Assembly: GCA_964019135.1 (NCBI GenBank)
Contig: OZ025258.1
Location: forward strand, 32,172,186 to 32,236,185
DNA length: 64,000 nucleotides
DNA from: Arenicola marina
Taxonomy: Eukaryota; Annelida; Polychaeta; Arenicolidae
Reading direction: 5' to 3'
Position 1 is the first letter of the stretch. Each line of letters begins with the position of its first letter. Below, piece by piece: positions 3,321 through 46,800 of this stretch. A program made the translations under genes and the position numbers. Under the pieces are notes generated by a model. It was given only the letters and a program-made list of their open reading frames with translations, had not been told where the DNA came from and searched no databases.

Positions 3321-4305
3321 GCCTAATGAAATGAACAAACTGCATGATCACGCCTACTGCATTTACGGGCACTGACACCAGCCTGGTTGATCATTTGTCA
3401 ACCAGCCGTCATCTTTTCCCGAATGTCCCGTGCTGCTTCTGTCCGACACGTCGCTAAGGCGTGGGCCCCGGACGAGTACGAAGAAACTCAGGCTACCACC
3501 GAACAGAAGTGCCTGCAGTAACACGTGCAGTGTGCTCGTGGCTACCTCGTGGCTGGAGATTTCGGGAATGTGTGACTTATCCTTGCAGCTTATGTATATG
3601 CCACAACACATGAACACTATAATCGGGGTCAAATGAACTAATTAGAGAGTTATTGCACCACGTTTCCGCGCCACTGATACGCATCCCGAACCGTTAGCGC
3701 CGATACTTTTACGTTTCGGTTTTTCACTCTCGCGCGGCGCACAAATGAGTTATTGCAGTCGGTATTCTTTCGACAACCGTAAAGCGACGGCTGGCGTTCT
3801 TCACAATGTACGAAGGCAACCACAATAGAAGCAGAATTGAATACAAATAGAAGAGATGGTTTAAACGATTTTGTTTGAAAGTGTTAACACCTGTGTTAGG
3901 GTTTTGTCTATTTCTATTACTTCTTTCGCTATTTTACCTCTAATCAAACAAAAGCACAAACTGTAACAGGGCAGTTTCTTCATGACTAATTCTGTGATGG
4001 ATTTAGACATGATGAAGTACCCATTTCTAGAAAAACACCTTCTGGAAATGGTGATGTCATTCATTTTGTCATTTACATTTGTGAAAAGTGTTTTCACATG
4101 GAACAAGTTCCTCAACAAACAGATTTAAATTTGAAACTTCTTATTGCAACCACAACTATATAATAAATGTAAAACCATCTAAACAGTTGGCATCTTCATT
4201 GAACAATAATTTTTCATGCAGGTTCTTACCGCTGATCAGGAGCTGGCCTGGCCAATAATATTTCGAAATGTAGCGGTGAATTACGCTTACACCTGAATAA
4301 AAAAA
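3321..4305. other. unique non-coding spacer
   Basis: Unique DNA between two repeat blocks, GC-richer at first and then AT-rich from about 3820. No exon with plausible splice signals, RNA gene or element end was recognised. The small open frames here (for instance minus strand 3363-3632) have no motif I know and overlap a frame on the other strand. Confidence 0.5.
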
Positions 4306-8800: not shown

Positions 8801-10410
8801 ATTGGGATGTCCGATGTGTTCAAGGACTGCGGTGTTATATGTTATTGACATGTTCGATGTGTTCAAGGGATGTGGTGTTATATGTTATTGATATTTTCGA
8901 TGTGCTTAAGGGATGTGGTGTTATCTGTTATTGACATGTTCGATGTTCTCAAGGAGTGTGGTGTTATCTGTTATTGACATGTTCGATGTTCTCAAGGACT
9001 GTGGTGTTATATGTTATTGACATGTTCGATGTGCTCAAGAACAGTGGTGTTATATGCTATATGGATGTCCGATGTGTTCAAGGACTGTGGTGTTATATGT
9101 TATTGGGATGTCCGATGTGTTCAAGGGATGTGGTGTTATATGTTATTGATATTTTCGATGTGCTTAAGGGATGTGGTGTTATATGTTATTGACATGTTCG
9201 ATGTGTTCAAGGACTGCGGTGTTATATGCTATATGGATGTCCGATGTGCCCAAGGACTGCGGTGTTATATGTTATTGACATGTTCGATGTTCTCAAGGAC
9301 TGTGGTGTTATAGGTTATTGACATGTTCGATGTGTTCAAGGACTGCGGTGTTATATGCTATTGGGATGTCCGATGTGTTCAAGGACTGCGGTGTTATATG
9401 TTATTGGGATGTCCGATGTGCTCAAGGACTGCGGTGTTATATGTTATTGGGATGTCCGATGTGTTCAAGGACTGCGGTGTTATATGTTATTGACATGTTC
9501 GATGTGCTCAAGGACAGTGGTGTTATATGTTATTGACATGTTCGATGTGTTCAAGGACTGCGGTGTTATATGCTATATGGATGTCCGATGTGCCCAAGGA
9601 CTGCGGTGTTATATGTTATTGACATGTTCGATGTTCTCAAGGACTGTGGTGTTATATGTTATTGACATGTTCGATGTGCTCAAGGACTGTGGTGTTATAT
9701 GTTATTGACATGTTCGATGTGCTCAAGAACAGTGGTGTTATATGTTATTGGGATGTCCGATGTGTTCAAGGGATGTGGTGTTATATGTTATTGGGATGTC
9801 CGATGTGTTCAAGGACTGCGGTGTTATATGTTATTGACATGTTCGATGTGTTCAAGGGATGTGGTGTTGTATGTTATTGATATTTTCGATGTGCTTAAGA
9901 CATGTGGTGTTATCTGTTATTGACATGTTGGATGTGCTTAAGGACTGTGGTGTTATATGTTATTGACATGTTCGATGTGTTCAAGGACTGCGGTATTATA
10001 TGTTATTGGGATGTCCGATGTGTTCAAGGACTGCGGTGTTATATGTTATTGACATGTTCGATGTGTTCAAGGGATGTAGTGTTATATGTTATTGATATTT
10101 TCGATGTGCTTAAGGGATGTGGTGTTATCTGTTATTGACATGTTCGATGTGCTCAAGGACTGTGGTGTTATATGTTATTGATATTTTCGATGTGCTCAAG
10201 GACTGCGGTGTTATATGCTATTGACATGTTCGATGTGCTCAAGGACTGTGGTGTTATATGTTATTGGGATGTCCGATGTGTTCAAGGACTGCGGTGTTAT
10301 ATGCTATATGGATGTCCGATGTGTTCAAGGACTGCGGTGTTATATGTTATTGATATTTTCGATGTTCTCAAGGACTGTGGTGTTATATGCTATTGACATG
10401 TTCGATGTAC
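5841..10410. repeat. 43-bp minisatellite, main block (about 106 copies)
   Basis: About 4.57 kb of the same 43-bp unit as bases 1-605. Variants alternate between TTATTGACATGTTCGATGTG and TTATTGGGATGTCCGATGTG, and between GGACTGTGGTG, GGACTGCGGTG and GGGATGTGGTG. Higher-order repeats of several units occur: the stretch near 7600-7940 recurs almost exactly near 8250-8590, about 645 bp or 15 units apart. The many 70-120-codon frames are the three registers of one repeat. Confidence 0.93.
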
Positions 10411-12015: not shown

Positions 12016-14796
12016 TTACCGAGTAAAATAAGTTCCTTGCGCAGTCCCAAAGGCGCGGTCGCAATACATGTCATAGCCATGTGTAATAAACGCCCTTCTC
12101 AGCTGAAATGACAAGCAAACAAGCTTCTCCACCCCACTCGGGGTCGCCAGGTTGTTATCATGGAACTTCCAGCACAAAGGCACATCACAAACAGACATAG
12201 TCGGATCGAATTCGATATGGCTAGTCAACGTCTCGTTGACCAACCATGATCCAGTTCAATGCGATCATGTCAAGTTACATCGACGGCATAAACGACGTAC
12301 CTGTCTGCCGTCAATCGCCGCAACTCCCTCCTCCCTCCACCTACGGCTAGGACTGACTTACCTCATGGCCAGGGTGACCGCTCACTGTGAATTACTAGTG
12401 TTAACATGTCTTACCATCCGTGGGGCTTGTCTGGGTCAAGGCGGCTTCGCCCTCACACCCTGCGAAAAGAAGAAATGCCACAAAATAATTTAACAAATAA
12501 TAATAAACTACGACGACGTGAACTATGTGCAGTCAATCTCACTTATTGATCTATTCGGCACTGCCAATTGAACTCAAATTTCTTGTTCACACTCGTCAGT
12601 GGCGGATTTCATGCTCGCAGTTTAGCCGACTACGGAGCTTAGTCGGCTAAAGTTACCATGTAAATGATGGAAGATTTCGGCCGACAAAGCCGTGTCGCCG
12701 TTATATGAAATAATAGGCCACCATGTCGCCGGGTAAACTATATACGTGAAATAGGCCAAACTGAAGGCTTGTCCATCCACGATCCTTTCAACAGGAATAA
12801 CTACTTCCGATAGCTACTTACTGCATAGTTTATTTATTTTACATTTGTTATTTTTCATTCGTTTATTGTGACAAGATGGCGTGACATGCACTAACGTGTT
12901 ACAAAAGTTTACTGCAGTTAGTGTTTTAGTGGCTGTGAGGATCACTGTGCCGTATTTGCCGCAAGGACGCAATGCATGCTTGACGAGGTAGTTCCACTTA
13001 CCAGTTTGCAAGATGAGGCGAGTGGCGTCGTTGTTACAATCCTCGCCATAGCAAGCAAATTCGCATACGTTCGGTTGAGAACAGACCACATATCCTAGTC
13101 TCAATTCGTCATCCAAGGTGCTGACAGTCGCACACTTCTTGGTGAATCTAAGTCTGCAAACATATGTTTATTTTGGTAAGAGAGCATACATTATATTCAG
13201 ACTCCTGGGGTCGTGTACCGCGGGATACTTGGTAGTAAACATACATCGTGATATCTAAAGTAATCAAGCAAATTATTTTAGCGTTATACAAGGAAGCGTT
13301 AATAATACAATACGACAATAAGTGTTCCTACATTCCTCGGGCAATAAAAGTGTTCCTACATGCCCGGGGCGATACAAGTGTTCCTACATGCCCGGGGTGA
13401 TACAAGTGTTCCTACAAGCCCGGGGCAATACAAGTGTTCCTACATGCCCGGGGCGATACAAGTGTTTCTACATGCCCGGGGCAATACAAGTGTCCTACAT
13501 GCCCGGGACAATACAAGTGTTCCTACATTGCCCAGGGCAATACAAGTGTTCCTACATTGCCCGAGGCAATAAGGTAAGCGTGCTTACGTTCCGGAGGCAG
13601 CATTACAGGCGACCTTGGCTGTGCAATAGTGGTTGTCTGAGTTGCATTCCTCGTCCAGACAGTCTTCTTCGTTATAGACGTTCCTGCATGTCTTACAGCT
13701 AATTCCTGGAATACATCGAAGAAGATCACACTTGTGTTAAATATAATAACAATGGAAGTATATAGATTTGCTTCTCCCGGTCGCTGCCTACAATGCGACT
13801 GGTAGGGTTTAAGGTGTCTTACAGCGTCAGGTCTCACAACAATGGCTTCTGAGCGTAACGACAAAAGCGTCTACATAGACAACATTTCGTTTTTAATCTT
13901 CAAATAACTTGACCATAAGGAAGAGACTAGCAGTAAACCATAGACGCCATGAATGGCGGGTTGTGGACTGTGGTAAATATGACAGAGAAACATTCCCCTT
14001 GGCAGAGGAAAGTTGATCTATTACCGTAACGGATATACAGTGACATGGGGCCGATGCGAAACACTGCATTATTGGGATAAATCAAGGCTACATAGAAGTC
14101 TTCACATAATTATTCACGCAATAGCAAAACTTTGTAATGTGATGAAATTGAAGACGAAACGTTCAGCTGTAATAATTCAGTCGGTTCAAGAATTGGGTTC
14201 TCTCTAGTGTTAAAGTGTTCGTGCCACGATTTTGTCTTGCTCAGAGTCAACTTGGTTTAGGGAAGATTAATAAATAACAATTTGTTTTAATGGGAGGTTA
14301 CAGTTTTTATTCCGCGATATCACTATAAACGGGTTCGTTAAAGTAGCAAAAGTGAGGTGCGGCGGGTTCATTTCTGGGAGCATTTCATCTGAGCGTTATT
14401 TGAAAATTCCCCAATTCCCACAAGATTGACAGGTGAGCTTCGATGCAGTGCGTAGGCATCTGTGGTCGAGGGCGTGTATTGTTTTCATGGTTGAGTGCGT
14501 TTCGTTGAGTTCAAGCCAATAAGCAGACAGAATCTGAGTCTCCATATAAAAGCACGTGCGTTTGTGTTCCCCTTTGACGTCACTTTCCTCGTTAACTTGG
14601 TAAGTGCGAAAAACAAGTGGAGAAAGTATGCCCTTCTATTATTTGGGGCGTTACAGCTCGATAACATAAGCGCGGACACACAGAAGATTAATATGAGCTA
14701 AAGTTGACACTACTATGGAGACCAGGACTTACCCACGCTGAGTCCTATGGACACCAACGCGACCAGAGACCCCAGAAGGGCGGCTGAACACTTCAT
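12016..14796 (-). CDS. gene 1: secreted single-domain Ly6/uPAR-like protein (six coding exons)
   Basis: Coding exons, 5' to 3': 14733-14796, 13588-13705, 13002-13153, 12415-12459, 12362-12384 and 12016-12102. Together they give 489 nt, or 162 codons plus TAA. The first exon encodes a signal peptide starting MKCSAALLGSLVALV. The next two encode one three-finger domain: C-x2-C near its start, KKC in the middle and CEFACYGEDCNN at its end. The fourth exon supplies a twelfth cysteine (GCEGEA) and a short Thr/Ser/Pro linker. The last two encode a polar tail ending GTAQGTYFTR. All junctions have GT/AG and phases agree (1, 2, 1, 1, 0). No transmembrane segment is evident, so it is probably secreted. 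It could be GPI-anchored only if the tail is mis-assigned. The 23-nt exon is the least certain. Confidence 0.75.
13002..13705 (-). CDS. gene 1 Ly6-like domain: exons B (13588-13705) and C (13002-13153)
   Basis: Exon B (118 nt) begins G|GA ATT after a polypyrimidine-AG and encodes ISCKTCRNVYNEEDC, then EECNSDNHYCTAKVACN. Exon C (152 nt) encodes TKKC, a long middle finger, VVC, and NVCEFACYGEDCNND. The terminal C-x3-C-x4-CN is the hallmark of Ly6/uPAR/CD59-type domains. Eleven cysteines are in B+C and the twelfth is in the next exon. There is no A microexon: the signal-peptide exon joins B directly, as inferred for D1 of gene 2. Confidence 0.85.
13322..13575. repeat. 28-bp minisatellite in gene 1 intron, beside the exon B donor
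   Basis: About nine copies of TACAAGTGTTCCTACATGCC / CGGGGCAA. The array ends about 13 bases from the 5' splice site of gene 1 exon B (exon edge 13588). Unlike arrays in genes 2 and 3, its unit does not include exon sequence. Confidence 0.9.
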
Positions 14797-23691: not shown

Positions 23692-26600
23692 CTGGACATC
23701 ACGGAATGAGGGTTACCTACCCGCCACGCCCCACTGGATTCACCACACGGCACCGCCCCACCCCCCCCCTCCCCCCACCCACCAACCCACGCCCGCGCTT
23801 AGTCCCCACACAGCACCTGAGCCTCCTGGCGTCCCGTCCGGTCCCTCGGGAATGAGGTCCACGGCAGGGGGCGTGGTCGGCTCCGGGGGTTCCACCTCAG
23901 TTGGCTCCGGCGTGGGCCCCACTGTACAAGCTGCGGCGGTAGTCAGACAACCTCTATTAATTACATTGCTCCCCAGATACAGCCTTAGATCTTACTGTCA
24001 CAGACACCACTATTAATAACATTGCTCCCTAGATATAGCCCGAGATCTTACCGTCACTGACACCACTATAATAACATTGCTCCCCAGATATAGCCCCAGA
24101 TCTTAATGTCACAGACACCACTATAATAACATTGCTCCCTAGATATAGCCCGAGATCTTACCGTCACTGACACCACTATAATAACATTGCTCCCCAGATA
24201 TAGCCCCAGATCTTAATGTCACAGACACCACTATAATAACATTGCTCCCTAGATATAGCCTGAGATCTTACCGTCACTGACACCACTATTAATAACATTG
24301 CTCCCTAGATATAGCCCCAGATCTTAATGTCACAGACACCACTATTAATGACATTGCTCCCCAGATATAGCCCCAGATCTTACCGTCACTGACACCACTA
24401 TTAATGACATTGCTCCCCAGATATAGCCCCAGATGTTACCGTCACAGACACCACTATTATTGACATTGCTCCCTAGATATAGCCCCAGATCTTACCGTCA
24501 CTGACACCACTATTAAATACATTCGTATTACTAAAAGCTGTTTCATGCTGATCTACTTATTATTCTCCTTTACCTCAGCTATTTGAGGATTTTATTCCTG
24601 ACATTATAATCTCTATGAATATGTCTTGTCCATGCACCCAAAAATCATCAGTCGTGATCGGGGCATGCACTGCCGTCAATCCTATTAGGTGTTCACCCAT
24701 GTGCCAACTCGGAGGCTCCGAAACCTTCGACAGTGTGTGAACGCAATCACCAGGCTGATCGCACTAACAAACTACAGATAACGGGCTGTATTTATAGGAA
24801 TGGTGTTAAACAAATTATGCACGTAAGACGAGCTCTCTTGTAGTCTCTCACACTCCTGGCGGCGATATTCTAAGTATTGTCACTTGGGGTTTATGTGTGC
24901 CACTGCTGAAGTTTTTGGGTCATCTTACCCAGGGCGTCAATGACAATCTGGGCGTCAACGTTGCAGCCGTCCTCCCCACAGGTCATCTCACACTTGGTGT
25001 CCTTGGGGCAGACCGGGTTGTCCAGCATGGTGGGGTCGGCGACAGTCTCACGCTTGCATCTCTTGGTGATGCGAGTGCTAAAACAAGGTAACAGAAAACA
25101 AATGCCATTTCACCAGATGCACGGGTAACCCATACCATGTGGCCAATAGTGTACGTTCTGTGTAGACCTGTGTATCAGCTCTGTAGACAGTATTATATGT
25201 TCCGCATACACTCAGTTGGTAAGCATACTGAGCAGCAAATCAAAAGGTCGTGGGTTCATTATATCTGAATATCTGGTATTACATCCGGGGCAAGTCCAAC
25301 TTCATTTCAGTGTCCCTGTGAATTTATTTTTGACTGTCTACTGACAGACGACACGAAACACTGCTATTTACAGACCACACGAAACATTGCTACTTACACA
25401 CCCCATGAAACATTGCTACCTACAGACCACACGAAACACTGCCTACCGACAAACCACACAAAACCAGGCTACTGACAGACCACACGAAACACTACTACTT
25501 ACAGACCCCATGAAACACTGCTACTTACAGACCCCATGAAACATTGCTACTTACAGACCACACGAAGCACTGCCTACTGACAGACCACACGAAACAATGC
25601 TACTGACAGACCACACGAAACATTGCTACTTACAGACCACACGAAACATCGCTACTTACAGACCACACTAAACATCACTACTTACAGACCACATTAAAAC
25701 TGCCAACGTAGAGACCACACGAAACATTACTACTGACAGACCCCAAGAAACATCTCTACTTACAGGCCCCACAAAACTGCCTACTTACAGACCACATAAA
25801 ACACTGCGTACTTACAGACCACACTAAACACTGCCTACTTACAGACCACTATCGCGTTCACAGATGACCTTGGTGTAGCAGAGGTTGCCAGCGCGACACC
25901 TGATGTCTTCGCATTCACTCTCGTCGTACACGTCAGTACATTTCTGGCAGTCAATTCCTGATTTAGACGAACGGTTTAAATATCAGAAACAATAAAATGA
26001 CGATTTGTTGTTTTGTAGGTACAAATATTGCATTAATATCGACACGTATATGTTACAAAAGACAAATATAATAATTATGTGTATCAACAAATGTTGAATA
26101 TTAAAATAGGGCACTGTATAGGACCGAATTATTGGTAATACCATACATTGAGATATGATATGCTCGGACCTAATATTAGATGTCATAAATAAGAATGGCG
26201 ATGAAATTTTGTGACTTCTTACCTGGAGGCCTAACTGGGCAATCTACAAAACAATGAAATAATAAATAAACACATAGCAAGGCGACAGACGAATGCTTTT
26301 AGTTTCAGGATTGCGAAATAACACACAAAGACTCGATATATATGTAGCTTTAATCATCACGCACGTCAATGTATTGCATCAAATGTATATAGGTAAATAG
26401 CCACATCAAAGTTCTTAAATGGCGGACATTTGGTTATTGAGAGCCTGAAAGATGGCTGACATATAGTTATTGAGAGCCTGAAAGATGGCTGACATCCAGT
26501 TATGAGAGCCTGGAAGAGGGCTGACAGCCACTTATGAGAGCCTGGAAGAGGGCTGACATGTACTTACTGAGAGCCCGGAAGAGGGCTGACATGTACTAAC

Positions 26601-29600
26601 TGAGAGCCTGGAAGATGGTTGATATGTACTGACTGAGAGCCTGGAAGAGGGCTGACATGTACTCACTGAGAGCCTGGAAGATGGTTGATATGTACTGACT
26701 GAGAGCCTGGAAGAGGGCTGACATGTACTCACTGAGAGCATAGATGAGGGCTGACATGTACTCACTGAGAGCCTGGAAGAGGGCTGACATGTACTTACTG
26801 AAAGCCTGGAAGAGGGCTGACATGTACTTACTGAGAGCCTGGAAGGGAGCTGACATGTACTTACTGAGAGCCTGGAAGAGGGTTGATATGTACTGAATGA
26901 GAGCCTGGAAGAGGGTTGATATGTACTGACTGATAGCCTGGAAGAGGGCTGACATGTACTCACTGAGAGCCTGGAAGAGGGCTGACATGTACTCACTGAG
27001 ACCCTGGAAGAGGGCTGACATGTACTTACTGAAAGCCTGGAAGAGGGCTGACATGTACTTACTGAGAGCCTGGAAGAGGGTTGATATGTACTGAATGAGA
27101 GCCTGGAAGAGGGTTGATATGTACTGACTGATAGCCTGGAAGAGGGCTGACATGTACTCACTGAGAGCCTGGAAGAGGGCTGACATGTACTTACTGAGAG
27201 CCTGGAAGAGGGTTGATATGTATTGACTGAGAGCCTGGAAGAGGGCTGACATGTACTCACTGAGAGCATAGAAGAGGGCTGACATGTACTCACTGAGAGT
27301 CTGGAAGAGGGCTGACATGTACTTACTGAAAGCCCGGAAGAGGGCTGACATGTACTCACTGAGAGTCTGGAAGAGGGCTGACATGTACTTACTGAGAGCC
27401 TGGAAGAGGGCTGGCAAGCACTTACTGAGAGCCTGGAAGAGGGCTGACATGTACTTGCTGAGAGCCTGGAAGAGGGCTGACATGTACTTACTGAGAGCCT
27501 GGAAGAGGGCTGACATGTACTTGCTGAGAGCCTGGAAGAGGGCTGACATGTACTTACTGAGAGCCAAGAAGAGGGCTGACATGTACTTACTGAGTGCCTG
27601 GAAGAGGGCTGGCAAGTAGTTACTGAGAGCCCGGAAGAGGGCTGACATGTACTTACTGAGAGCCTGGAAGAGGGCTGACATGTACTTGCTGAGAGCCTAG
27701 AAGAGGGCTGACATGTACTTACTGAGAGCCTGGAAGAGCTCGGCTGTGTCTGTGTTACAGTAGTCAGTGTCACAGGCCAGGGAGCAGTTGTCGATGTTCT
27801 CACAGACCATGTTGTTGAGGCTGCTGAGATCGGCGACGGCCGCTATGTTCATGCATCGCTTCTTATAACGCGCTCTGAAGAAATGGAATCATGAATAAAT
27901 CATAGGAGTGTTGTTATTGAAATTAGTGTGGGAGGCACAAACATTTTTTCCACAAAAACCTGAAAATAATGCTTGTGAAACCCTGACATGTAGGCGACCG
28001 TGGTGCACGTTACGTACTATTTGCACACTATAATCGTTGGTAAACACATAAGAGGGCCAGAGGCACAGATATATATTAGGTTCTACAAGGGGGGCACGTG
28101 CTACCCTGTACCCCCCCTGGACACGCCCACGTCAAGACCTGATAGAATACGTGCCCAGTTGATGGCTTGCGTGGGGAGTTAGTTACGTCTGCAAGCCTGC
28201 CCTCACGTCCAGGGGCCGTATTCATAATCCCCTCGGAAGTTATGCACGAAAAGTGTGTTTTCGTCTTATCCTCACCAGCTCATTGTGGTGCTGCTCATGA
28301 TTATGAAAATCCCTTCGATATAATTTCAGCACTTTCTTAATTAGGAAAATCCACTTCTTGGGTGACTATTTATGTATTTTTAACCCGATAATCGATCGAC
28401 AAATCTTACCCTCTGTCTGATGTTAGGAAAAGAATGACCACTACAGAAAATCTCCAGTGTGTTTGATATTAGAAAAAGACTGACCACTACAGACATTCTC
28501 ACCATGTAAGCTGATGCATGACACACTCTAATGCTGAGTGACTTATGAGAATGCAATTTTAGCAAAACCAAACAACGTTGGGACTGTCCAGATGCAGCTA
28601 TGGCACCACATTGCTCTGAAAGAATAATCTTAGGACAATGGTGAGCACCAGACTTACGTCTCATTGGGCCGATCGCAGAGCACTTTGGCGAAGCAGACTT
28701 CACTTTCGCGACAAGTCTGAGGTTCATTCTGAGTGTTGCAGTCTCCTTCGTTGTCCACGTCATCACACACGGTGCAGATGGGTCCTGGAAAATGGGCTGA
28801 GTAATGTAGGCGACTGCTACATCACATCTCTTGCTTAAAGGACAACGAAGTTAGGCGAGGTTCGCCGTCACTGAAGTTACTGAGTATTGAGTAAACAGTA
28901 CGCCGCCGAATCAAACTGTTATTGCTCATATATACAATGAGCGATAAGGAACTGAATATTCGACACACAAACGAGAAGGTGGAATATTTAAAGGGACAAA
29001 GCTGACTTACCCACTCCCCTGGTAGGACAATCTGAAAGGTAAATGGAAGTAGCAATCAATAACGCGTAGGATACCAACAATGTAGACCTGGACTTGATGG
29101 AGAGCATATGGTATTGTGTAGACAAGGCACCGGTGGTTAGTAGTAATGTCAGCTAAGCGATATATACTGTCAGCCAGCAACAAGGATAACGCCGTAACAT
29201 TTGAATAGGGTGTGAGAATGATACAGTACTTTGAGAACATCGACAAAAACATTTATATTTCCACAATGAACGAAGCGACAGCTATCTTTCTATTAATATA
29301 TATTCGACAATGATATAGATTTTTTCTGTGAGCTCTTTCTGTGATATTACGATATTTGTTCTGTATCTTTTCCCCCTCCTTTTTTGTTTACTGATACATG
29401 TTCTGCAAAAAGGATGTTATGTGATGAAACAGGAAAAATTATTTATTAAAGAAAAAAAAAACGCATGACCTGCATAACAGGTAAGACAGCCCGTAAATTC
29501 AAAACAACCCCTCGCTCATGCACTATTATAGGGTGTTATATTTTACGCCAACGTTTTCTAACTTACTTAGTCCAGACCATTATCTGAGCCCTGTAGGAAC

Positions 29601-32600
29601 TCACCAATCACGGTGTCGAGGTACTGCGCGGTGTTGTCGTTACAGGCCTCGCTGTCGCAGTAGTAAGCGCACTTCGAAGTGTCGGCATTCTCGCAGTAGG
29701 GGGTGTCCAGCGCTGTGTCAGTGGGGGCACCTACACATCCCTTCTTCATCAAACTGTCCCTGAAATATATGTCAAAAGAGTTTAAAACGAGTAATTATAT
29801 TCCCATGCCAGGTGGGGCCAGATCTTAGAGAAGCCAACATAATGTTATTCGACCAGCCAAAGATGGGTCGGCTATGTAACTTCTTAGCATAATGCAATTG
29901 TGTCACCGGGTTGGACGCCTGGACCATTTAAATATGAACCGTGACGATTCAAATGGTCCTCTGGACGTGATATAATTAATTAAATATGACGTTGGCGATA
30001 ACATGCATCCAGAGATTGGAGTTGTGGACGCTGTAATGTAAGGTGTGTACAGGGTGATGGTAAAGTATGTATATATATAAGTTACGTATTTATATATTGT
30101 GACAAGAAGGCAGGGCATTTGGTAAAAAGAATAATCGTAATTGAATTAGTTATTAACTTTACTGGCGCTTACCCTCCACTGGTGCATCGGATGCTGATCT
30201 GACACACTTGGTTGGGGTTGCACTGCTCCAACGGACCCTGGTTACAGGTCGCCTCGTCCGGGGCGTCCGTGCATGACCGACAATGAATGCCTGGAACAAA
30301 GCGTAACCACATGTCAACTCTTCTTCCGGTGTTTAGTTGATCGTATTAAACACAATAAAAATCAATGGGATATATAACAAGTGGTAATGTTATCTATTAC
30401 ACGGCTACGGCTAGATAGGAGGTGGGGTGGATATGTTATTATGGTACAGTAGGGGTGTCAGCACATCGGGATTAGTGCACTATTTGAATTGTAATAATTC
30501 TTGAAGAAACTAATGGCTTATTATATTTTATGTTCATTGCATCTATCCGATAGTGACTGTTCGGGGCGACAGTTCGGTAATGAATTATGACTCACCCACG
30601 GCTCTGACTGGGCACGCTGTGAAGACAAGAAAAAGGAGGACGTATTGGTACACAGACAAACAATGATGACAACGGCGACAGATGCAACCACCTTTATGAC
30701 ACCCAAATACTGCATTAATATTGTGAAAAGACTAGAATATGCTGGGTATGGTTGTTCAGGAATGACCCCCCCCTCCCCCTGTTTACATAGATACGTATAT
30801 ATGTAACGCGATAAGGAATCATTTTACGTAAACATTGAGGCAAAACACGCATCAACCTTCCACAGTACCAGTAATCAACGCATCATAACGCACGCAGAAT
30901 AACGGAATCACCCAACTACTATCCTGAGTCACGTACCCGAGGGAACCAGCCATGCTGGACACATGGTCCCGCAAAACCACCCAGAAAATAAATAATTTAT
31001 CATTCAGGTAACACAGGTGGGAGGTAACTCACAGAGCAGGGCGGCTATGAGGCTGACAGGTGGGAGGTAACTCACAGAGCATGGCGGGAGACTGACAGGT
31101 GGGAGGTAACTCAGAGCATGGCGATTATGAGACTGACAGGTGGGAGGTAACTCACAGAGCATGGCGGCTATGAGACTGACAGGTGGGAGGTAACCCACAG
31201 AGCATGGCGGCTATGAGACTGACAGGTGGGAGGCAACTCACAGAGCATGGCAGGAGACTGACAGGTGGGAGGTAACTCAGAGCATGGCGATTATGAGACT
31301 GACAGGTGGGAGGTAACTCAGAGCATGGCGATTATGAGACTGACAGGTGGGAGGTAACTCAGAGCATGGCGATTATGAGACTGACAGGTGGGAGGTAACT
31401 CACAGAGCATGGCGGGAGACTGACAGGTGGGAGGTAACTCAGAGCATGGCGATTATGAGACTGACAGGTGGGAGGTAACTCAGAGCATGGCGATTATGAG
31501 ACTGACAGGTGGGAGGTAACTCAGAGCATGGCGATTATGAGGCTGACAGGTGGGTGGTATCTCACAGAGCATGGCGGCTATGAGACCTACAGATGGGAGG
31601 TAACTCACAGAGCATGGCGGCTATGAGACTGGCACTTTCGTCGTTACAGGCATCGCCATCACAGTACATTCCGCACTTGGTGTTGTCCGCACTCTCACAC
31701 GTCACGACGTTGAGCTCCGGGCCTGCGCCCACACACCCCTTCTTCATCTGGCTGTCCCTGCAAGGTCAGCAAGGACGCTTTTGATCGGCCATGAGCGAAT
31801 GCAAGATTTTAAAAAGGAAACTAGAGGTCTATATTGGATGAGTTCTCCGAAAATCTTGTCAGCGGCGTCAAGGAATGAATAGATACATTATCGACAATTG
31901 TCATATCGTAATTTGTATCAAATAAAAAATAATAACTCCTTAATACTGTTGAAATCAATGCGCGTCTCAGTTGATCTGGCGTTTGTTGTTGTGAACTATT
32001 TGTTCAGCTAGTTGCCCTCTTGCAATGATTTTGTTCTTCTTACTTACTCTCCTATGATGCAGCGGATGCTGGTCTGACACACTTGATTGGGATTGCATTG
32101 CTCCAGTGGTCCCTGGTCGCAAACATTCTCATCCGTCTCTTCCACACAGGTGCGGCACTGGGGTCCTGAAAGGATATGGGCCTTACCATTGCAATCACAT
32201 GAGTCGAAAAGCGGCTCAGTGGCAGCTGTGCAGCGAAATGATTATAATAGTAGCGTGCCAGGCCATGCAAGAGAGTTTAATTACAGGATCAGTGTATCTC
32301 TGCCTCGAGGAGACAACGTTAGTTGGCGGCTTCGGAATAGAGAACTCACCCACATCTTTGACCGGGCAAGCTGCAAGAAATAAGAAAAAAGTAAGTGACA
32401 TCATCTTTACAGAAGCAGCTTCTAGTACAAGTAGCATTTATAGAAGTAAGACTATCCATGCATTACAATTAATACAACAATAATAGTAATAATATTTTTG
32501 AGAATAGTAAAAATATTAAATAATACTAATTATAATAAAATTAATAATATCATTAGTATTAAAAACATATATCTAACAACTGTGATTTTAGCATTTTATT

Positions 32601-34668
32601 CCATCAATCTATCTCTTTCTGTGAATCAGGGCAATATTAACAGTAACAGGGGGGTGAGCAAGGGGTATTTGCGTTCCGTGCCAGGGTTGATTCTGCGGAG
32701 GAGAGATGCCTTGCAAATCGATTAGCTCATAACTTGCGGAGAGAAAATAAGTGCTTCAAGCCCGAACAGGATTCTATATACACTTTAGGCCAAAATCGAG
32801 GGAAAGAGGGTGGGGTGAGGATGGTGAGAAGGGCTCACGCCAACCATTAGTATGAAGATTCAAGACTGATGACATAGGTGTTAATTGCATCCTGGTTTTG
32901 CCGTTAAGCTGAGTAGAATTATTCTGGGAAATGAAGAAGTTGTTGACTGCTTACTTAGGACGCTGTTGATCTCGTCATAGTTGGCAGCATTGCACAGCTC
33001 GGAGTCACAGTAGACAGCACACTTGGTGTTGGTGTTGTCTGTACACGTGGGACCTCCGTTGATGTTATTAGCGTTACTAGCGCCAACGCAACCCTTCTTT
33101 ATCATGATGCTGGAATATAATCGTCGCGCATGTGTGTCAAAACCCACAACATTAAGCAAAACCAGCGGCTAAGTAATTTTGCTTTGAAACTTATATTATA
33201 CTTATTTAGAAGCCTGTATATTTAAAAAACAATCATTTTCAACTATACCCTTGCCGCCCGCCCCCCCTCCCCCGCACCCCTGCCACGCCGGCGAGCACAG
33301 GAAAGTTTGCTGAGTCCCAAACGCATTAAATTTTATTTAATACATAGTGGTCAGTCGTCAATTCATAATTATATCGACGGAAAAAGCGCGGGGTATTTGA
33401 CCTCAATGACTACCCACCCCGTCGGGGAGACGCATCGAACGACCGTCTGGCATATCTGGTTATTGTTACACTCGTCCGTGGTCCCCTGCGACATGCACTC
33501 CTCCTCGCTGGCAGACTCCGTGCATTTGTGACACGTGGGACCTGTTCACCATGCAATCAAATAGAAGTCGCATTGAGTCGTGATACAAGTGCGTCGGGCT
33601 TCCTTACATTACTAGCTGATATTGTATTTGATTTATACACTATTAATCATCATAAGTATAACAACTGTTAAAAAATGTATTGCTTAACAACAGAGCTGTA
33701 ATATGAAATACATTATTCTAAAAAAAAGAAAAGGCAGTTGTGCCTATCAAATTTCGTAATTGTCTTTCCTGTAACATGTATTTCATTTACATTTTTGCTT
33801 TTTCTAAAGTATTTTCCTTTATTTCTGCTCATAGCAGTCAACAATTCTTCAGGTAGTTCCAGTAATCCATTACAGTGAAACCATGGTAGTAGCTATTCAA
33901 TTTGACAAAAATCTTGTGCATTAATGCAATCAGTACTCCTTGTATTACAAACATAACTATAGCCTCATGCACAAAGTTGACGTGTTGTACCAAGTCTTGG
34001 AATGAATAGCACAGTAAATGTTACCATACGACAATGCGTATCTACAGAGCGAGACTAAAAGACAACAAAGGCACTAACATTTCAGCAAAATGCAAACAAG
34101 AGAAACGGCGTTGCCATCTAAATTAATGTTCCTATTGGGTCTTCAAATAAATGATTACCATTGCGGATTATTATCTTCTTATGTGACTATGGTAAGTAGA
34201 TCACCATTTTCATACTAAATAAAGGTTGCTGACCTTAGTACATGAAAAAAATAAAATGAGACAAAATTCCCCCTGCTTCTAAACTCATGAACAATCTGCC
34301 AAATTTGACCCCTCCCCCACTCCTGCAGTGTTGTCCCCAAGGGAACTTCGGGTATCCACCAATCTCAAATCTCAAATGTACTGTTAGTGACGATCTGTTG
34401 AAAGCTTATTCTACTAATATCGAAATAGACAAGAGAAATAAACTGCTTAGGTCGACATCGTTTAGCAAAAACTGCTATGCCTCAAAATCCCCCCCTCCCC
34501 CCATGCCCTCTTTATCTGTCCTTTATAAAACCTTCTGGGAGAAGGCATGTTTGTTTTGTAGGCGTGTTTTAGTTGGGCATTGGTTGATGGGGTGTGGTTG
34601 GCATTACCGGCAGCGTTCACACCGCTGATAACCAACAGCAGGGCGACAGCCAAAGTCCCCATTATCAT
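23391..34668 (-). CDS. gene 2: secreted five-domain Ly6/uPAR-like protein
   Basis: Exons 5' to 3': signal 34608-34668; D1 B 33418-33541, C 32955-33109; D2 A 32350-32370, B 32048-32165, C 31609-31757; D3 A 30596-30616, B 30173-30290, C 29605-29759; D4 A 29011-29031, B 28658-28784, C 27723-27874; D5 A 26223-26243, B 25843-25957, C 24929-25077; linker 23817-23930; tail 23641-23691 (or 23611-23691); last coding part 23391-23485. The total divides by three with either tail donor: 588 or 598 residues. Every junction is GT/AG and phases run 1-1, 1-2, 2-1 through each A-B-C trio. The protein should enter the secretory pathway and display five disulfide-rich three-finger domains. Ligand and function are unknown. 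No clear transmembrane segment is visible, so membrane attachment is undecided. Confidence 0.8.
23817..23930 (-). CDS. gene 2 Pro/Thr/Glu-rich linker exon
   Basis: A 114-nt exon, phase 1 to 1. It begins (A)CTVGPTPEPTEVEPPEP and is followed by TTPPAVDLIPEGPDG. The leading cysteine occupies the place taken by the DCP cysteine of microexon A and would complete domain D5. The rest looks like an extended, possibly O-glycosylated stalk. Its counterpart in gene 3 is 40974-41102. The donor (TCAG|GTGCTG) is weak but supported by the same phase in gene 3. Confidence 0.65.
23940..24520. repeat. 55-57-bp minisatellite in the D5-linker intron of gene 2
   Basis: About ten copies of ATAACATTGCTCCCTAGATA / TAGCCCCAGATCTTACCGTC / ACTGACACCACTATT. 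The array starts just beyond the acceptor of the linker exon. Gene 3 has a single related unit at about 41128-41195 (ATTGCTCCTTACAG, CCCAGACTTCACC), which looks like the unexpanded state. Confidence 0.9.
24929..26243 (-). CDS. gene 2 domain D5 (A 26223-26243, B 25843-25957, C 24929-25077)
   Basis: Microexon A encodes CPVRPPG. B encodes IDCQKCTDVYDESEC, RCRAGNLCYTKVICE. C encodes TKRCKRETVADP, NPVC, KCEMTCGEDGCNVD. This is the partner of D9 of gene 3 (C-x2-C, TKRCKRE, MTCG-x-DGCN shared). The exon B donor (AGTGGTCT|GTAAGT) seeds the 26-bp array that follows it in the intron. This domain has a shorter B exon (115 nt) than the others. Confidence 0.85.
25196..25285 (+). repeat. tRNA-derived SINE fragment or tRNA pseudogene
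   Basis: Contains an A-box-like CTCAGTTGGTAAGCAT and, 35 bases on, a B-box-like GGTCGTGGGTTCATT, separated by CTGAGCAGCAAATCAAAA. The acceptor stem cannot be closed and the B box lacks the usual CGA, so a working tRNA is unlikely. tRNA-headed SINEs with AAGGTCGTGGGTTC are common in molluscs and related animals. Confidence 0.5.
25330..25842 (-). repeat. 26-bp minisatellite seeded at the D5 exon B splice donor
   Basis: About 19 copies of a unit which on the minus strand reads GGTCTGTAAGTAGCAATGTT/TCGTGT. The array begins at the exon edge (25843): exon end AGTGGTCT plus donor GTAAGT is the first copy, so most units carry a GGTCT|GTAAGT donor-like word. The corresponding intron in gene 3 (after 42378) has only about one unit (42350-42377, ACACGAAACACTGCCTACTT). 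Confidence 0.9.
26405..27722 (-). repeat. 33-bp minisatellite seeded at the D4 exon C splice donor
   Basis: About 40 copies of a 33-bp unit, read on the minus strand as CTCTTCCAGGCTCTCAGTAA / GTACATGTCAGCC. The first half is the end of the coding exon (codons LFQAL and the first base of the next) and the second half is the donor GTAAGT and intron start. Since 33 is a multiple of three, minus frames stay open for 361 and 423 codons (LFQALSKYMSA; SRLSVSTCQPS). Straight read-through from the exon meets a stop in the first unit, so the long frame is not a simple extension of the exon. Confidence 0.9.
27723..29031 (-). CDS. gene 2 domain D4 (A 29011-29031, B 28658-28784, C 27723-27874)
   Basis: A encodes CPTRGVG. 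B (127 nt, the longest) encodes PICTVCDDVDNEGDC, SEVCFAKVLCDRPNE. C encodes RYKKRCMNIAAVADL, MVCENIDNCSLACDTDYCN and ends TAELFQAL before the donor. It is the ortholog-like partner of gene 3 D8, with most residues shared. The exon C end is the seed of the 33-bp array. Confidence 0.87.
28205..28425. mobile_element. MITE fragment (GGGGCCGTATTCATAATCCCC family)
   Basis: Starts with TCCAGGGGCCGTATTCATAA and runs through GTTTTCGTCTTATCCTCACC, CTTCTTGGGTGACTA and CGATCGACAAATCTTACC. The same sequence, in opposite orientation, forms the copies near 48.7-49.0, 51.2-51.4, 54.1-54.3 and 56.9-57.1 kb. One terminal inverted repeat is missing here, so it is truncated. It sits in the D4 B-C intron. Confidence 0.65.
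29605..30616 (-). CDS. gene 2 domain D3 (A 30596-30616, B 30173-30290, C 29605-29759)
   Basis: A encodes CPVRAVG. B encodes IHCRSCTDAPDEATC, GPLEQCNPNQVCQIS, IRC. C encodes SLMKKGCVG, TPYCENADTSKCAYY, CDSEACNDNTAQYLD. This is the single-copy counterpart of the five D3-type domains of gene 3 (D3-D7). Confidence 0.88.
31010..31608 (-). repeat. 43-bp minisatellite seeded at the D2 exon C splice donor
   Basis: About 14 units (some shortened to 35-40 bp) reading on the minus strand GTCTCATAGCCGCCATGCTC / TGTGAGTTACCTCCCACCTG. The array abuts the D2 exon C edge at 31609. Exon end CTCATAGCCGCCATGCTCT plus donor GTGAGT is the first copy, so each full unit repeats 19 coding bases and a GTGAGT donor. 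Related arrays head the extra D3 modules of gene 3. Confidence 0.9.
31609..32370 (-). CDS. gene 2 domain D2 (A 32350-32370, B 32048-32165, C 31609-31757)
   Basis: A encodes CPVKDVG. B encodes PQCRTCVEETDENVC, GPLEQCNPNQVCQTS, IRC. C encodes QMKKGCVGAGPELNV, TCESADNTKCGMYCD, GDACNDESASLIAAM. Matches gene 3 D2 (58585-59431). The last codons, SLIAAML, are those repeated in the adjoining 43-bp array. Confidence 0.87.
32955..33541 (-). CDS. gene 2 domain D1 (B 33418-33541, C 32955-33109)
   Basis: No A microexon: B begins G|GT CCC and joins the signal exon directly. B encodes PTCHKCTESASEEEC, NNNQICQTVVRC. C encodes MIKKGCVGASNANNI, TCTDNTNTKCAVYCD, SELCNAANYDEIN. The exon B donor is the non-standard-looking GG|GTGGGT, chosen because only it gives phase 2. 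Partner of gene 3 D1. Confidence 0.83.
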
Positions 34669-40871: not shown

Positions 40872-43800
40872 CTGGACGCCATGACGGGATGACATGCGGA
40901 AGACACGTCTCCTCCTCTGGCTCCCACACATCACCCCCACCCCCGCCGCTGCCCCTGCCACCCAATTCATCACCTGTGCCGTTCGGCGTCAGCGTTGTCT
41001 GCTGTCCCGGTGCCGAGGTTGTCTGAGGAATGAGGATGTCCACGTTTGGCGTGGTGGCTTCCGGCGGATCCGTGACATTCACCGGGGGTCCGATTGTGCA
41101 ACCTGCAGCGTAGTAAGACATATTCTATAGGTAGTATTGCTCCTTACAGTAATCCCAGACTTCACCTTGACCGCCATTGAAACCGCTTAAACTGGTAAAT
41201 CTTACTTAAACTGTATAATCGTTATTAGGAATAATACTATATACGAGTGCATCTATTATCACTTTAGTCATACTTTTGTCAGTACAAATGACAAATGAGT
41301 TTTCTACCACAGCGATTAGTCTCTTTACTTCGGCCTGTATCGTGCAGCGATGTCGGACACACCTTCTGTCCATTGTCATGTGGCTCAATTATGGAAAGAT
41401 TATAGTTCGAGAACAGTGCTTTTTCGTCGTAGGTTGGTTGTGCTCATGGCCCAGAAATCATATTCAACATACTTTGAACACTTCCTTAATCCAGAAAAGT
41501 TACCTCTTGGGTGAGGACTTTCTTGAAGCCGATAATCGATGTTCTACTTAGCGCTGAGTCTATGTGGTTTATGAATACCGCTCTCGCTGCATCTGCTGAA
41601 GTGTACTTGGGACCCGCGCTTTGCATGTCCTTACCGAGTGCGGCGATGGCAGTCTGAGAATCAGCGTTGCAGCCGTCCTGGCCGCACGTCATCGCGCATT
41701 TGAAGTCCTTGATGCAGACCGGGTTGTCCAGCATAGCGGGGTCGGCTACACTCTCACGCTTGCACCTCTTGGTGATGGTGGTCCTGGAACGAAGCGGCAG
41801 AAAAATGTCGACCATCTCATCATCATGGGTTGTCATCAGCCATATATGCAAGCCATAACAGGTGGTCTACATTATGCGTTCAGTATACACACTGTATAAC
41901 CTATACATGTGTATTCTGGATAGGCTATACTCAATATACATTCTGTATATATATATATACCAAATACACACTAGTTACAATATGTCTACACTCCTTAGGC
42001 AATTCCAATTTTCCACGCATCTTGTCAAGTCGGAAATATTTGTGTAGATAAAACAATTGTTATCGAATAAATATTATGTGATATTGCTTGTGTCAAATAT
42101 TTCCAAAATGCCAGGATCTTGATCACGTGGTACACTAGAGCGTTTCTTGTAGATCATGTAGGTCGTTAACAATTCACCAGACATTTTTTGAAGTGCCTTT
42201 GAAGTGCCCATCTGCCGTATGAGGTGCTTTGGCATGATGTCCATACGAAACCTTTTTAATTTATTAATTTAATAATTTATAGTAATAATATTATTATTTA
42301 TTATTATTATGGTTAAGGATACGTCCGAGTTTTCCTCTTTAGACAATCACAGACCACACGAAACACTGCCTACTTACAGACCACTGTCGCGTTGACAAGT
42401 GACCTTGGTGTAGCAGAGGTTGCCATCGCGACACCGGACGTCAGCGCAATCACTGTCGTTGTCGACGTCAGTACATGTCTGGCAGTCGATGCCTAAATTA
42501 GACGCATATATATACAGACACAGTCAAAGTGTGACTTACTGTTTTGTTACAGTTAAAGATTAAAAAGGATAATACGAGAGCGGGTAATTGATAGTTCGTC
42601 GGGCTTATATAGGATATCCTCTGACATAATGTCATATATCACAGCACAAGAAGTATTTAAAAAGAAGAATAGAGGTCTAATGAATGTCTGTGAATTCTCA
42701 CCTGGAGGCTTAACTGGGCAATCTACAAAATAAAAATATTGCACATTGTCAGACGAATGGGACTTCGGCGCATAATTGTAGCATAAGACCATGAATGAAT
42801 GTAGTTGCAGCTTTAATAAATATGCACCAATCTACAGTTGAATCATGGCAATATGACAATAACGATGGTTAGGGGGGCGTTAGGCAATGTTACTGACCCC
42901 ACATCAAGCTGCTACAGCTTGATGAAGGGCCAATAAAATGTCTAACGCCATGCAACACTCGCGCTATTACAATTACTACCAGTTACATTTTTAGTTTACC
43001 TCACATATATATGCCTTGCTTCTTTGGTTTAATTCGCATACACCGTTCGAAGTAAAATGCTTAGCGCTTACAAGCCTTCCCAGTTCTTGTGAGCCAGTCG
43101 CCTTCTTTACACCATACACCAAGTAAATATCAGTCTATCGTGACCAAGAAACAGCACGCGTAGCTAGGCAACTAGGTGGGCCATTTAAATCAATAAGCAC
43201 AACTCTGTTGCGTGCGACGTCATATTTCATTGTTCTACGCCATGTAACTATGGGCGTGATCGATTCGCCTCTTCCAACGTCTACCTCTTCCGGAACAGTG
43301 CATGCAGTACGATCGTTTTGCTTCTTCTATTCCGAGAAGACCTCTTCTGCTCTTCCGCCCAGGTAGGTGGAAGAGAGAAGAGGTAGAGGCTATTCCAAGA
43401 TGGCGGAAGCTAACTATGCAATATTCGCTCAGTGTGACAAAATAGGTTTTAGGGGAAATACATGAATGAAACAATGAATAAAATTCTGTGAAACATATGT
43501 AAGACCTTTTATTTTGTTATTTGAAAGATATGTGTCAGGTATATGAGGGCCCATATATGCAGTTACCCATGTATCTATCTGTTGAAGTTGGGCGATAATA
43601 TATGGACGTGGGCGATAAATTGTGAGCTATAAGTGAGTTTCCGTTGGCCATATTGAAACTACTCTTTCAACTCGTCCGACGCGATCGATTCATCGCTCAT
43701 TTTCTCTATTCTTGGATGAGCTCTTCTCTTCCTGGAAGAGTTGAATCGATTAGACTCTATGGCAAAGATTGTCTGTCGAAAAGCGAAGGGCCGTTTTGGT

Positions 43801-46800
43801 CAGATTACAGGATTTTAGCAGCCTTCAGATTTAATGCTATTGTACTAGTTACCACGACCATCAACTCATAATATATATATATATATATATAGGCAAGAGG
43901 GCGGCGGGATGAATGTGCTTATGGAGAGCATAAAGGAGGGCTGACATATATTTACGGAGAGCCTGGAAGAGAGCTGATATGAGTCGGGAAGAGGACTGAC
44001 ATGTACTTACTGAGAGCATGGAAGAGGGCTGACATGTACTTACTGAGACTCTGGAAGAGGGCTGACATGTGCTTACTGAGACCCAGGAAGAGGGGTGACA
44101 TGTACTTGCTGAGAGCCTGGCAGAGAGCTGACATGTACTTACTGAGACGCTGGAAGAGGGCTGGAATGTACTTACCCTGGAAGAGGGCTGACGTGTACTT
44201 ACTGAGACCCTGGAAGAGGACTGACATGTACTTACTGAGACCCTGGAAGAGGGCTGACATGTACTTACTGAGAGCCTGCAAGAGGGCTGACGTGTACTTA
44301 CTGAGAGCTTGGAAGATGGTTACCAGGCCTGTCTCCAACGCATCACGGGGTGCCGTTAGAGCCAGGCAGCATTTGCTCTCTTTGCGATGTTGCAGCGCAT
44401 ATTTTTGCGTATAGGGCGCACAGTTTTTAACTAGCCGACAAAATATGGATCTTTCCAGAATCCTTATGCAATTTACTGACCTGGCGGATGGAAAATACTT
44501 TGATTTATTGTTCTAACTTGCAATGTCAGGGCTTTTTCTGGGCACATTTATTCGATCAGCGCCAGCCGCGCCATTATGCGCTGCAACACCGCAAAGACAG
44601 CAAATGCTGCCTGGCTCTAACGGCACCCCGTGATGCGTTAGAGACAGGCCTGGTAAGGAAGAGGGCTGACATGTACTTACTGAAAGCCTGGAAGAGGGCT
44701 GACGTGTACTTACTGAGAGACTGGAAGAGCTCGGCTGTGTCTGTGTTACAGTTGTCAGTGTCACAGGCCAGGGAGCAGTTGTCGATGTTCTCACAGACCA
44801 TCTTGTTGAGGCTGCTGAGATCGGCGACGGCAGCTATGTTCAAACATTTTTTCTTGTAACGCGCTCTGAAAAAGTTGGATCATAAAGTAATCTTATTAAG
44901 GCCAATATATGCCACCATGACGGCCTGGGGTGTCGGGACTGTGTGTCGGCGAGCCTACCCGCAAAGTACATACAATGTGCCCTATGGCCCAGACCGCACA
45001 GTATAGACAATGTACCCTATGGCCCTATGGCTAATTTACATTAGCGTAAATCCAACTACTTCAGAAAATCGCACGGATGTTTGGTGGTTTATTACCGGGT
45101 ATGTTTAATCTTCGAGACCAAGGTTCCCGCATTCTTGACAGCCAAACAGACAGCATAGAAAGCTGATGTAGGACATACCATAATACTAACTAATTGACTC
45201 ATGGTAATGCAATCTTAGGTATACCAACTATGGGACTGCCTAGATACCGCTCTTAGGACGATGGTGAGCACCAATCTTACGTCTCATTCGGTCGATCGCA
45301 GAGCACTTTGGCGAAGCAGATTTGGTTGCGGGTACAGGTCTCGATTCCTTGTGTGTTGCAGTCTCCTTCGTTGTCAGCGTTGTCACACACGGTGCAGATG
45401 GGTCCTGGAAAGAGGGGTGAGCTGTGTGGGCGACTGCTACATCTAAGGCAAATACCTCGCTTAAAGGACAACGAAGCTAGGAGAGGTTCACCGTCACTGA
45501 AGTTACTTATCGAGACAATCACTGAGTAAACAATACGTTGCTAGACATTCGCATACAACGAGAAGGTGAGATATTTAAAAGGACAAAGCCGACTTACCCA
45601 CTCCCGTGGTAGGACAATCTGAAAGGTAAATGGAAGCAGCAATCAATAACGCGTAGGATACCATATCACTTAAAGCACGATAACACGATCAGTGCCCATG
45701 GTCGTGTCTATCAACAACCGCAATGTACTCTAGACGCTGCTCACAACATACATATCAACTACAACATTCGGGCCGAGGGCGGTTTTCAGAGTGATACCAT
45801 TGCTAGCCTAGCAATAGGGTACGCATTCGGTTGTTAAACGGCATCGCAGTTCTAAAGAGATGTCTGCAAGGCGACCTGTACATGACTGCAGACAGAAGAA
45901 GGCCAGCGTCTGTTTTGTATTCCTGCCATTAGGTGGAAGCACGTTGCGACAGTGCACATTGACAGGCATGGGCAGCACGACAGGGGCCAGTATGTTAAAT
46001 ACAACACTACTCATGCACTACTCTAGAGCCTCATGCTTGACGCCACTAATTTCTATCTGACAGGTCCGGACCATTATCTGTGCCCTGTAGGAACTCACCG
46101 ATCTCGGTGTCGAGGTTTTGCGCGGTGTTGTCGTTACAGCCCTCGCTGTCGCAGTAGTAAGCACACTTCGACGTGTCGCCATTTTCGCAGTAGGGGGTGT
46201 CCAGCGCTGTGGCAACGGAGGACCCTACACACCCCTTCTTCATCAAACTTGACCTGAAATATATATCGAAAGATTCGCTAAAATTCCCATGACTAGATCT
46301 ACTGAAACTTCTTCATCTTCATAACATTATGGGGAAAAACTTGAACTCACTTCATATAAAATTGATTTAATGTTCAGCATCGTGAAACGAACTTATGTCT
46401 TAAAGCCGATTTGAGGAATAAAACTGAAAAAAAAACCCAACTAATTCAAACCCCTGTTAGCGGTATGCAATTGTATCGTCCAGTGACGTCATAGTAAACA
46501 ATAAACGTCGCTATTAGGCGAATTGGCTGTTTCTGATTCCGATTCCGGTGCAAAAAAACTAGTTACTAGTTCAATTAGAAGTCTATCGACAAACGTGAGA
46601 AAGGACGCTTATATTTACCAATCCGTACAATTCGCATATAAAATCTGTTTCAATACCCATCACGTCATATTATCTCTTAGAATGGGCATTTCGATGTTCA
46701 GAGAGTTTCCGTGGCGATTATAGGCGACCATCACTCAAACAAGTGTCGCCATGGGCACGTACGTGGGTCATGCAATTAGGTGACCTTAACTGTTGAACAT

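Follow-up and report, generated by a model that had tools for sequence, protein, structure and literature searches.

Minisatellites spanning 5′ splice sites in a cluster of cysteine-rich genes of Arenicola marina

Minisatellite-like tandem duplications of exon-intron boundaries have been named mirages in lancelets, where they are described in Adh3, in the globins BflGb6 and BflGb9, in TnC and in PGBD5. The mirages of Adh3 and of the globins are reported not to interfere with regular splicing, and the repeats of PGBD5 abut the 5′ splice site (PMC3902484, in which TnC is also cited). The splice sites of PGBD5 are largely predicted in that report, with little cDNA support, and its authors allow heterozygosity or assembly error for one repeat, yet argue against assembly error. 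In human IFI6 (6-16/G1P3), two downstream repeat units are reported to be used as splice donors, giving three mRNAs (PMC4526556, citing Turri 1995), and the reference list of PMC2572611 also cites Turri 1995 for a minisatellite supplying multiple splice donors in this gene. Furthermore, tandem duplication at exon edges yields extra splice sites in Rogers' AGGT model, and in human segmental duplications new introns may arise from variable internal tandem repeats that lie where exons and introns of the duplicated genes meet (PMC2812944). Here, a stretch of 64,000 nt from the polychaete Arenicola marina (GenBank assembly GCA_964019135.1, contig OZ025258.1, positions 32,172,186 to 32,236,185 of the forward strand; hereafter, the window) was analysed, in which tandem arrays with units made of an exon end and its donor were found in two paralogous genes.

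Tandem arrays across the donors of five exons

The window was rich in tandem arrays, with 54 rows reported by Tandem Repeats Finder (TRF), which were merged into 15 families, and its minus strand carried a gene cluster in which every cysteine-rich domain is encoded by two exons, exon B (115-127 nt) and exon C (149-155 nt). The intron structure and the type of domain are in keeping with animal DNA. Four unrelated minisatellites, with units of 26, 33, 43 and 55 bp, were each found to extend over an exon's donor and over the 7-34 coding bases that precede it. A total of five exons were affected, the 33-bp array being present at two paralogous exons, namely exon C of domain 4 in gene 2 (D4 C) and exon C of domain 8 in gene 3 (D8 C). 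Each array was aligned to its unit, and the unit was phased to begin at the donor GT. All the exons and arrays with a unit donor given below lie on the minus strand, and a slash marks the exon-intron junction.

In gene 2, exon B of domain 5 (D5 B; 25843-25957), with the donor TCT/GTAAGT and the first intron base at 25842, is overlapped in its last 7 nt by a 26-bp array of about 20 copies (25333-25849), whose unit ends in GTGGTCT/GTAAGT. The D4 C exon (27723-27874; donor TCA/GTAAGT) is overlapped in its last 16 nt by a 33-bp array of about 39 copies (26434-27738), and exon C of domain 2 (D2 C; 31609-31757; donor TCT/GTGAGT) in its last 23 nt by a 43-bp array of about 15 copies (31013-31631), whose unit ends in CAGTCTCATAGCCGCCATGCTCT/GTGAGT. 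In gene 3, a paralogue of gene 2, the D8 C exon (44714-44865), which is the paralogue of D4 C, carries the same 33-bp unit, ending at both exons in CTCTTCCAGGCTCTCA/GTAAGT and again reaching 16 nt into the exon. The first 2.2 copies (44657-44729) are split here from a distal part of about 10 copies (43987-44316), degenerate at its intron end, by a 337-bp element with terminal inverted repeats (44320-44656, no strand assigned; 58 matches in the first 60 positions). Finally, exon B of domain 1 in gene 3 (D1 B; 63361-63481; donor TGG/GTAGGT) shares its last 34 nt with a 55-bp array of about 7 copies (62989-63394), in whose unit 34 coding bases stand ahead of GTAGGT. The paralogues differ in array copy number, as compared in one sequence.

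The presence of arrays at the donors of five exons in two paralogous genes had been proposed in a previous sequence-only reading of this DNA, and it was borne out by TRF together with the exon edges set by homology. That reading had also placed the start of each array exactly at the exon edge; the overlap with the donor stood, while the exact edge did not, given that the exon-side ends lie 7-34 nt inside the exons. The units, claimed there to be mutually unrelated, were compared by shuffling in all six pairs, and the claim held: the lowest p was 0.020 (26 vs. 33 bp, both starting with GTAAGTA), the next was 0.056, and the others were at least 0.27.

The exon edges were set from homology among the 30 domain exons (15 exon B and 15 exon C) and from intron phase. 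Every exon B (15/15) had a single candidate donor, of phase 2, in the stretch scanned. Among the 13 exon C that were scanned, all had a canonical phase-1 GT, which was the single candidate in five; the other eight had a second in-phase GT further on, mostly poorer, and the first one was taken as the donor. Beyond those 13, the positions of two D2-type exon C were set manually, and all 15 exon C donors were of phase 1. The acceptors were compatible with the phases of exon B and exon C; by phase, the acceptor of the domain 3 exon C of gene 2 is 29759 (29753 in the exon list used), with no array nearby. Moreover, a profile search on both strands, with models built from the very exons that they recover, returned the same 15 exon B and 15 exon C with E-values of about 7e−13 or lower, and nothing more below an E-value of 0.4.

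Gene 2 has a likely signal exon, with its donor at 34608, and domain exons from 33.5 to 24.9 kb. The domain exons of gene 3 lie between 63.5 and 41.6 kb, the window showing no start for this gene, and a third gene (gene 1) is partly present at 13 kb, also on the minus strand. Joining D1 exon C of gene 3 (62505) to D2 exon B (59208) creates a TGA across the junction, so that this gene may be a partial pseudogene, or its first domain may be spliced otherwise. No Pfam family was found for gene 2 at E-values up to 1, and a PDB sequence search with domains 1-3 gave no match at E-values up to 10. Two protein searches, with the gene 2 protein and with one domain, gave no homologue at the cut-off or none at all, Rfam gave no RNA family at the gathering score, and a tRNA search was likewise empty. 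The cysteine pattern of the domains resembles that of Ly6/uPAR (LU three-finger) domains, a likeness that no Pfam or PDB sequence match supports.

Position at donors had been put forward as the rule that these arrays share, and it agrees with the donor overlap of 4 of the 15 families, compared to 0 of 15 at acceptors. With one array taken per family (the one nearest a donor), an exon-side end 0-40 nt inside a donor was found for those 4 of 15 families in the whole window (P = 1.8e−4 under random placement) and for 4 of 6 families in the span of genes 2 and 3 (P = 1.2e−5). Wider bands gave P-values from 1.1e−4 to 4.1e−4 in the window (5/15 and 4/15 families) and from 2.7e−5 to 1.0e−4 in the span of genes 2 and 3 (4/6 families); all of these values are to be read with bands set after the data had been seen and with a window picked for its oddity. 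When arrays were counted singly, donor overlap was found in 5 of 23. The count of 15 families was reached by merging overlapping TRF rows and by dropping those with a period <10 or, outside the kept families, with <3 copies (31, 40, 35 and 17 bp). Only one of the 15 families, a 56-bp array, lies within 30 nt of an acceptor. This array (23944-24523) ends 13 nt upstream of the last exon of gene 2, and its unit holds the donor-like GACG/GTAAGAT. A 28-bp array (13320-13571) was considered as a possible fifth donor family and was not counted as one; 16 intron nt separate it from the end of gene 1 exon B, and the similarity between its unit and that exon end was not significant (p = 0.10 and 0.07).

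Origin of the arrays and their copies in mid-intron

We read these arrays, with a probability of about 0.7, as near-neutral minisatellites of the mirage type, which were duplicated across a donor and in which splicing was retained on the first copy. A short tandem duplication with its ends on both sides of a 5′ splice site would produce a unit in which coding bases from the exon end are followed by the donor and by the first part of the intron, and slippage or unequal exchange would then multiply it. Splicing would stay on the donor adjacent to the exon, probably through exon definition of an exon of 115-155 nt, and the array would be tolerated because all that lies past the first donor is intron.

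Genes 2 and 3 also have paralogous exons that are array-poor or array-free, one for each of the 26-, 43- and 55-bp arrays. These are, respectively, exon B of domain 9 in gene 3 (D9 B; 42378-42492), which is the array-poor partner of D5 B, the array-free exon C of domain 2 in gene 3 (58585-58733), with a single copy of the 43-bp unit, and the array-free exon B of domain 1 in gene 2 (33418-33541). In D9 B, the repetition is limited to the 9-nt GTGGTCTGT of the exon edge, which is found again at a distance of exactly one unit, or 26 nt (shuffling p = 0.0115, uncorrected for the 25 donors tested), and which would be the repeat expected to bound a first duplication. Furthermore, the donor of D1 exon C in gene 3 (62505; region 62440-62545) has CAACACCGTCCT repeated in exon and intron with a spacing of 24 nt across the donor (p = 0.001, the lowest among the 25 non-array donors tested), which is perhaps a nascent array. 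Conversion between genes 2 and 3, considered from their shared 33- and 43-bp consensus, was dropped because the intron starts are also conserved at some array-free donors (18/20 nt in D4 B and 19/20 nt in D3 C).

Four further 43-bp arrays, with the unit of the D2 C end and donor, were found in introns of gene 3, beginning 581-612 nt downstream of their exon; the previous reading had not mentioned them. Two of them lie 609 nt (47568-48386) and 612 nt (50467-50853) after a D3-type exon C, and the other two (52737-53798 and 55650-56586) lie 581 nt after such an exon. The introns that hold them are chimeric. All four have upstream flanks that match, with 74-79% over 217-222 nt, the last D3-type intron of gene 3, and downstream flanks that match the introns after D2 exon C (D2-D3) of both genes, with 66-68% over 408-446 nt for two arrays and 66-72% over 149-290 nt for the other two. 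The best reading of these flanks is that a D3-type domain would have been duplicated with one of the breakpoints inside a donor array and that further rounds came after, the mid-intron arrays being the chimeras left behind. An existing 43-bp donor array would in this way have joined in the duplication of a domain (exon B and exon C), leaving array copies in mid-intron. Between 52006 and 57825 of gene 3, neighbouring D3-type units are >99% identical in their intron flanks, and the arrays nearly so, which reflects either a tandem duplication of very recent date or a duplicate introduced by the assembly. In the viral contigs searched, where records of the source genome were possibly excluded, no exact match was found to a 29-base stretch taken from the 43-bp unit.

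An unlikely alternative to the near-neutral reading is that active 5′ splice sites themselves promote tandem duplication, by means of U1 binding, R-loops, a nucleosome edge or polymerase pausing, and that donors would for this reason be the starting points of arrays more often than acceptors or intron interiors. The asymmetry between donors and acceptors favours it, as does the 24-nt-spaced repeat at the array-less D1 C donor of gene 3, spaced repeats with p < 0.05 being found at 3 of 25 donors vs. 1 of 30 acceptors. However, that asymmetry comes from a single window with four such families and from a band selected after the fact, mirages at 3′ boundaries are described as well in the lancelet literature, and the four units have no skew, fold or sequence in common. 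Their coding-strand GC skews were +0.50, −0.29, −0.33 and −0.07, and none of them folded clearly better than its shuffles (lowest z of −0.45). As skew and folding show no shared signature, the idea of R-loops is unsupported by sequence, and the earlier suggestion that the splice-site sequence or its R-loop context promotes slippage found no backing in the units. It is quite doubtful, moreover, that the 5′ (not 3′) splice sites of this genome are birthplaces of minisatellites through transcription- or splicing-coupled duplication, the arrays then giving breakpoints for the duplication of domains. A donor bias, if genome-wide, would indicate a mutational process tied to splicing and would provide a natural series (no array, one or two copies, many copies, and copies moved to mid-intron), in which the disregard of spliceosomes for dozens of decoy donors and the gain of introns and domains could be studied.

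Donor use, decay of the copies and other repeats

Past the first donor, the first in-frame stop was met at +1 in D5 B, +23 in D4 C, +44 in D2 C, +1 in D1 B of gene 3 and +137 in D8 C. The units of 26, 43 and 55 bp break the frame and the 33-bp unit keeps it, and the stop precedes any in-phase downstream unit donor in four of the five exons. The supposition that any donor copy works was not supported in those four, the exception being D8 C, whose first array part holds an open unit donor in frame at +33. Under the near-neutral reading, splicing at a downstream unit donor would in most cases change the frame or run into a stop, and the extra donors would be drifting decoys and not a working bank.

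The copies have drifted at the donor itself. The GT is intact at 19 of the 20 unit junctions of the 26-bp array, at 31/39 of the 33-bp array (D4 C), at 8/15 of the 43-bp array (D2 C, with the GT lost at the other 7) and at 6/7 of the 55-bp array. With a scoring matrix made from the 17 distinct donors of array-free exons, 18 of 20 junctions in D5 B and 30 of 39 in D4 C equalled or exceeded the score of the weakest real donor. Among the nine arrays, the donor hexamer had mismatches of 0.06-0.13 between copies; its conservation surpassed that of the remaining intronic sequence in one array (26 bp), that of the exon-derived part in three, and that of both parts in none. The divergence of copies along the arrays had no consistent polarity in the nine, the nominal p-value being 0.036 for D4 C and, over its 6 full copies, 0.066 for the 55-bp array. 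On balance, the copies appear to fit drifting decoys with selection on the first site, which is a fit and not a proof.

That the copies form instead a functional bank of interchangeable donors or splicing regulators, giving variable interdomain linkers, as reported for human IFI6, is very unlikely. Such a bank would profit from the donor-grade junctions being common in D4 C and D5 B, from a GT that is well kept in 3 of 9 arrays and from a 33-bp unit that preserves the frame, with its second donor in D8 C. However, the other three units break the frame, stops come first in four of the five exons, and the hexamer is not preferentially conserved, the GT being lost at nearly half of the D2 C junctions. 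Coincidence in a region full of repeats, without any underlying rule, could draw on the many TRF rows and on a window and band selected as described, but is highly improbable with P between 4.1e−4 and 1.2e−5 under random placement, depending on band and span.

Several points weigh against the near-neutral reading. In D8 C, the open unit donor at +33 is accompanied by two weak GTs in the inserted element, D2 C has an in-frame GT at +18 that is not a unit donor, and the choice of donor, including the use of the first one in vivo, would follow from frame only. The GT mismatch is only 0.02-0.03, below that of other unit parts, in the 26-bp array and in those at 52737 and 55650, the latter two being near-identical copies and lying distant from any exon. 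Among the three array-poor partners, the bounding repeat was found only in D9 B (p = 0.14 for the D2 C partner and 0.79 for the D1 B partner), and an array may have collapsed in any of these partners. Considering the TGA at its D1-D2 junction, gene 3 may be unable to encode a complete protein. Finally, tolerance alone predicts arrays at acceptors or anywhere in the introns, so that their lack of overlap with acceptors leaves the donor bias unexplained, albeit with small numbers.

Apart from the gene cluster, a 64-bp array (4297-5780) is expanded inside an open reading frame, which we presume to resemble the ORF1-type protein of long interspersed nuclear elements (LINEs); a 44-aa piece upstream of this array had no Pfam match. 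Another 43-bp unit forms a 4.6-kb array of 106 copies (5842-10408) and is also found at 1-611.

Comparison with known systems

As tandem duplications of exon-intron boundaries have been described as mirages, the finding fits a known kind, and the earlier statement that no named system resembles this one has to be withdrawn: lancelet mirages bear a name, and the IFI6 minisatellite is cited for its multiple splice donors. Like in the lancelet mirages, the units hold exon-end and intron sequence, here at five exons with 7-34 exonic nt, and many of them keep the splice signal, in the GT proportions given above. Mirages so named are all from lancelets in the literature compared. Unlike in them, one paralogous gene cluster here holds several arrays with unrelated units, which overlap donors but no acceptor and reach about 39 copies, and copies of an array are also present in mid-intron. 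The minisatellite of IFI6 is similar in bearing multiple donor sites, whereas the frames would here argue against the use of downstream copies in four of the five exons. The reported intron changes by tandem repeats of Zhuo 2007 and of a potato case are alike in creating extra splice sites. In contrast to these, to Rogers' model and to the human duplicated genes of PMC2812944, no new intron is formed at this locus, where introns already present have grown at the 5′ end. The introns of the earthworm metallothionein and of an abalone TSSK1-like gene contain minisatellites, with no donor-straddling unit found in the passages compared, and no comparable cluster of donor arrays was found in the literature searched, the coverage of which was partial. 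What is new here is the number of separate donor arrays in one gene family, together with the copies carried along, and at present the locus stands as a rich additional example of mirages within one gene family.

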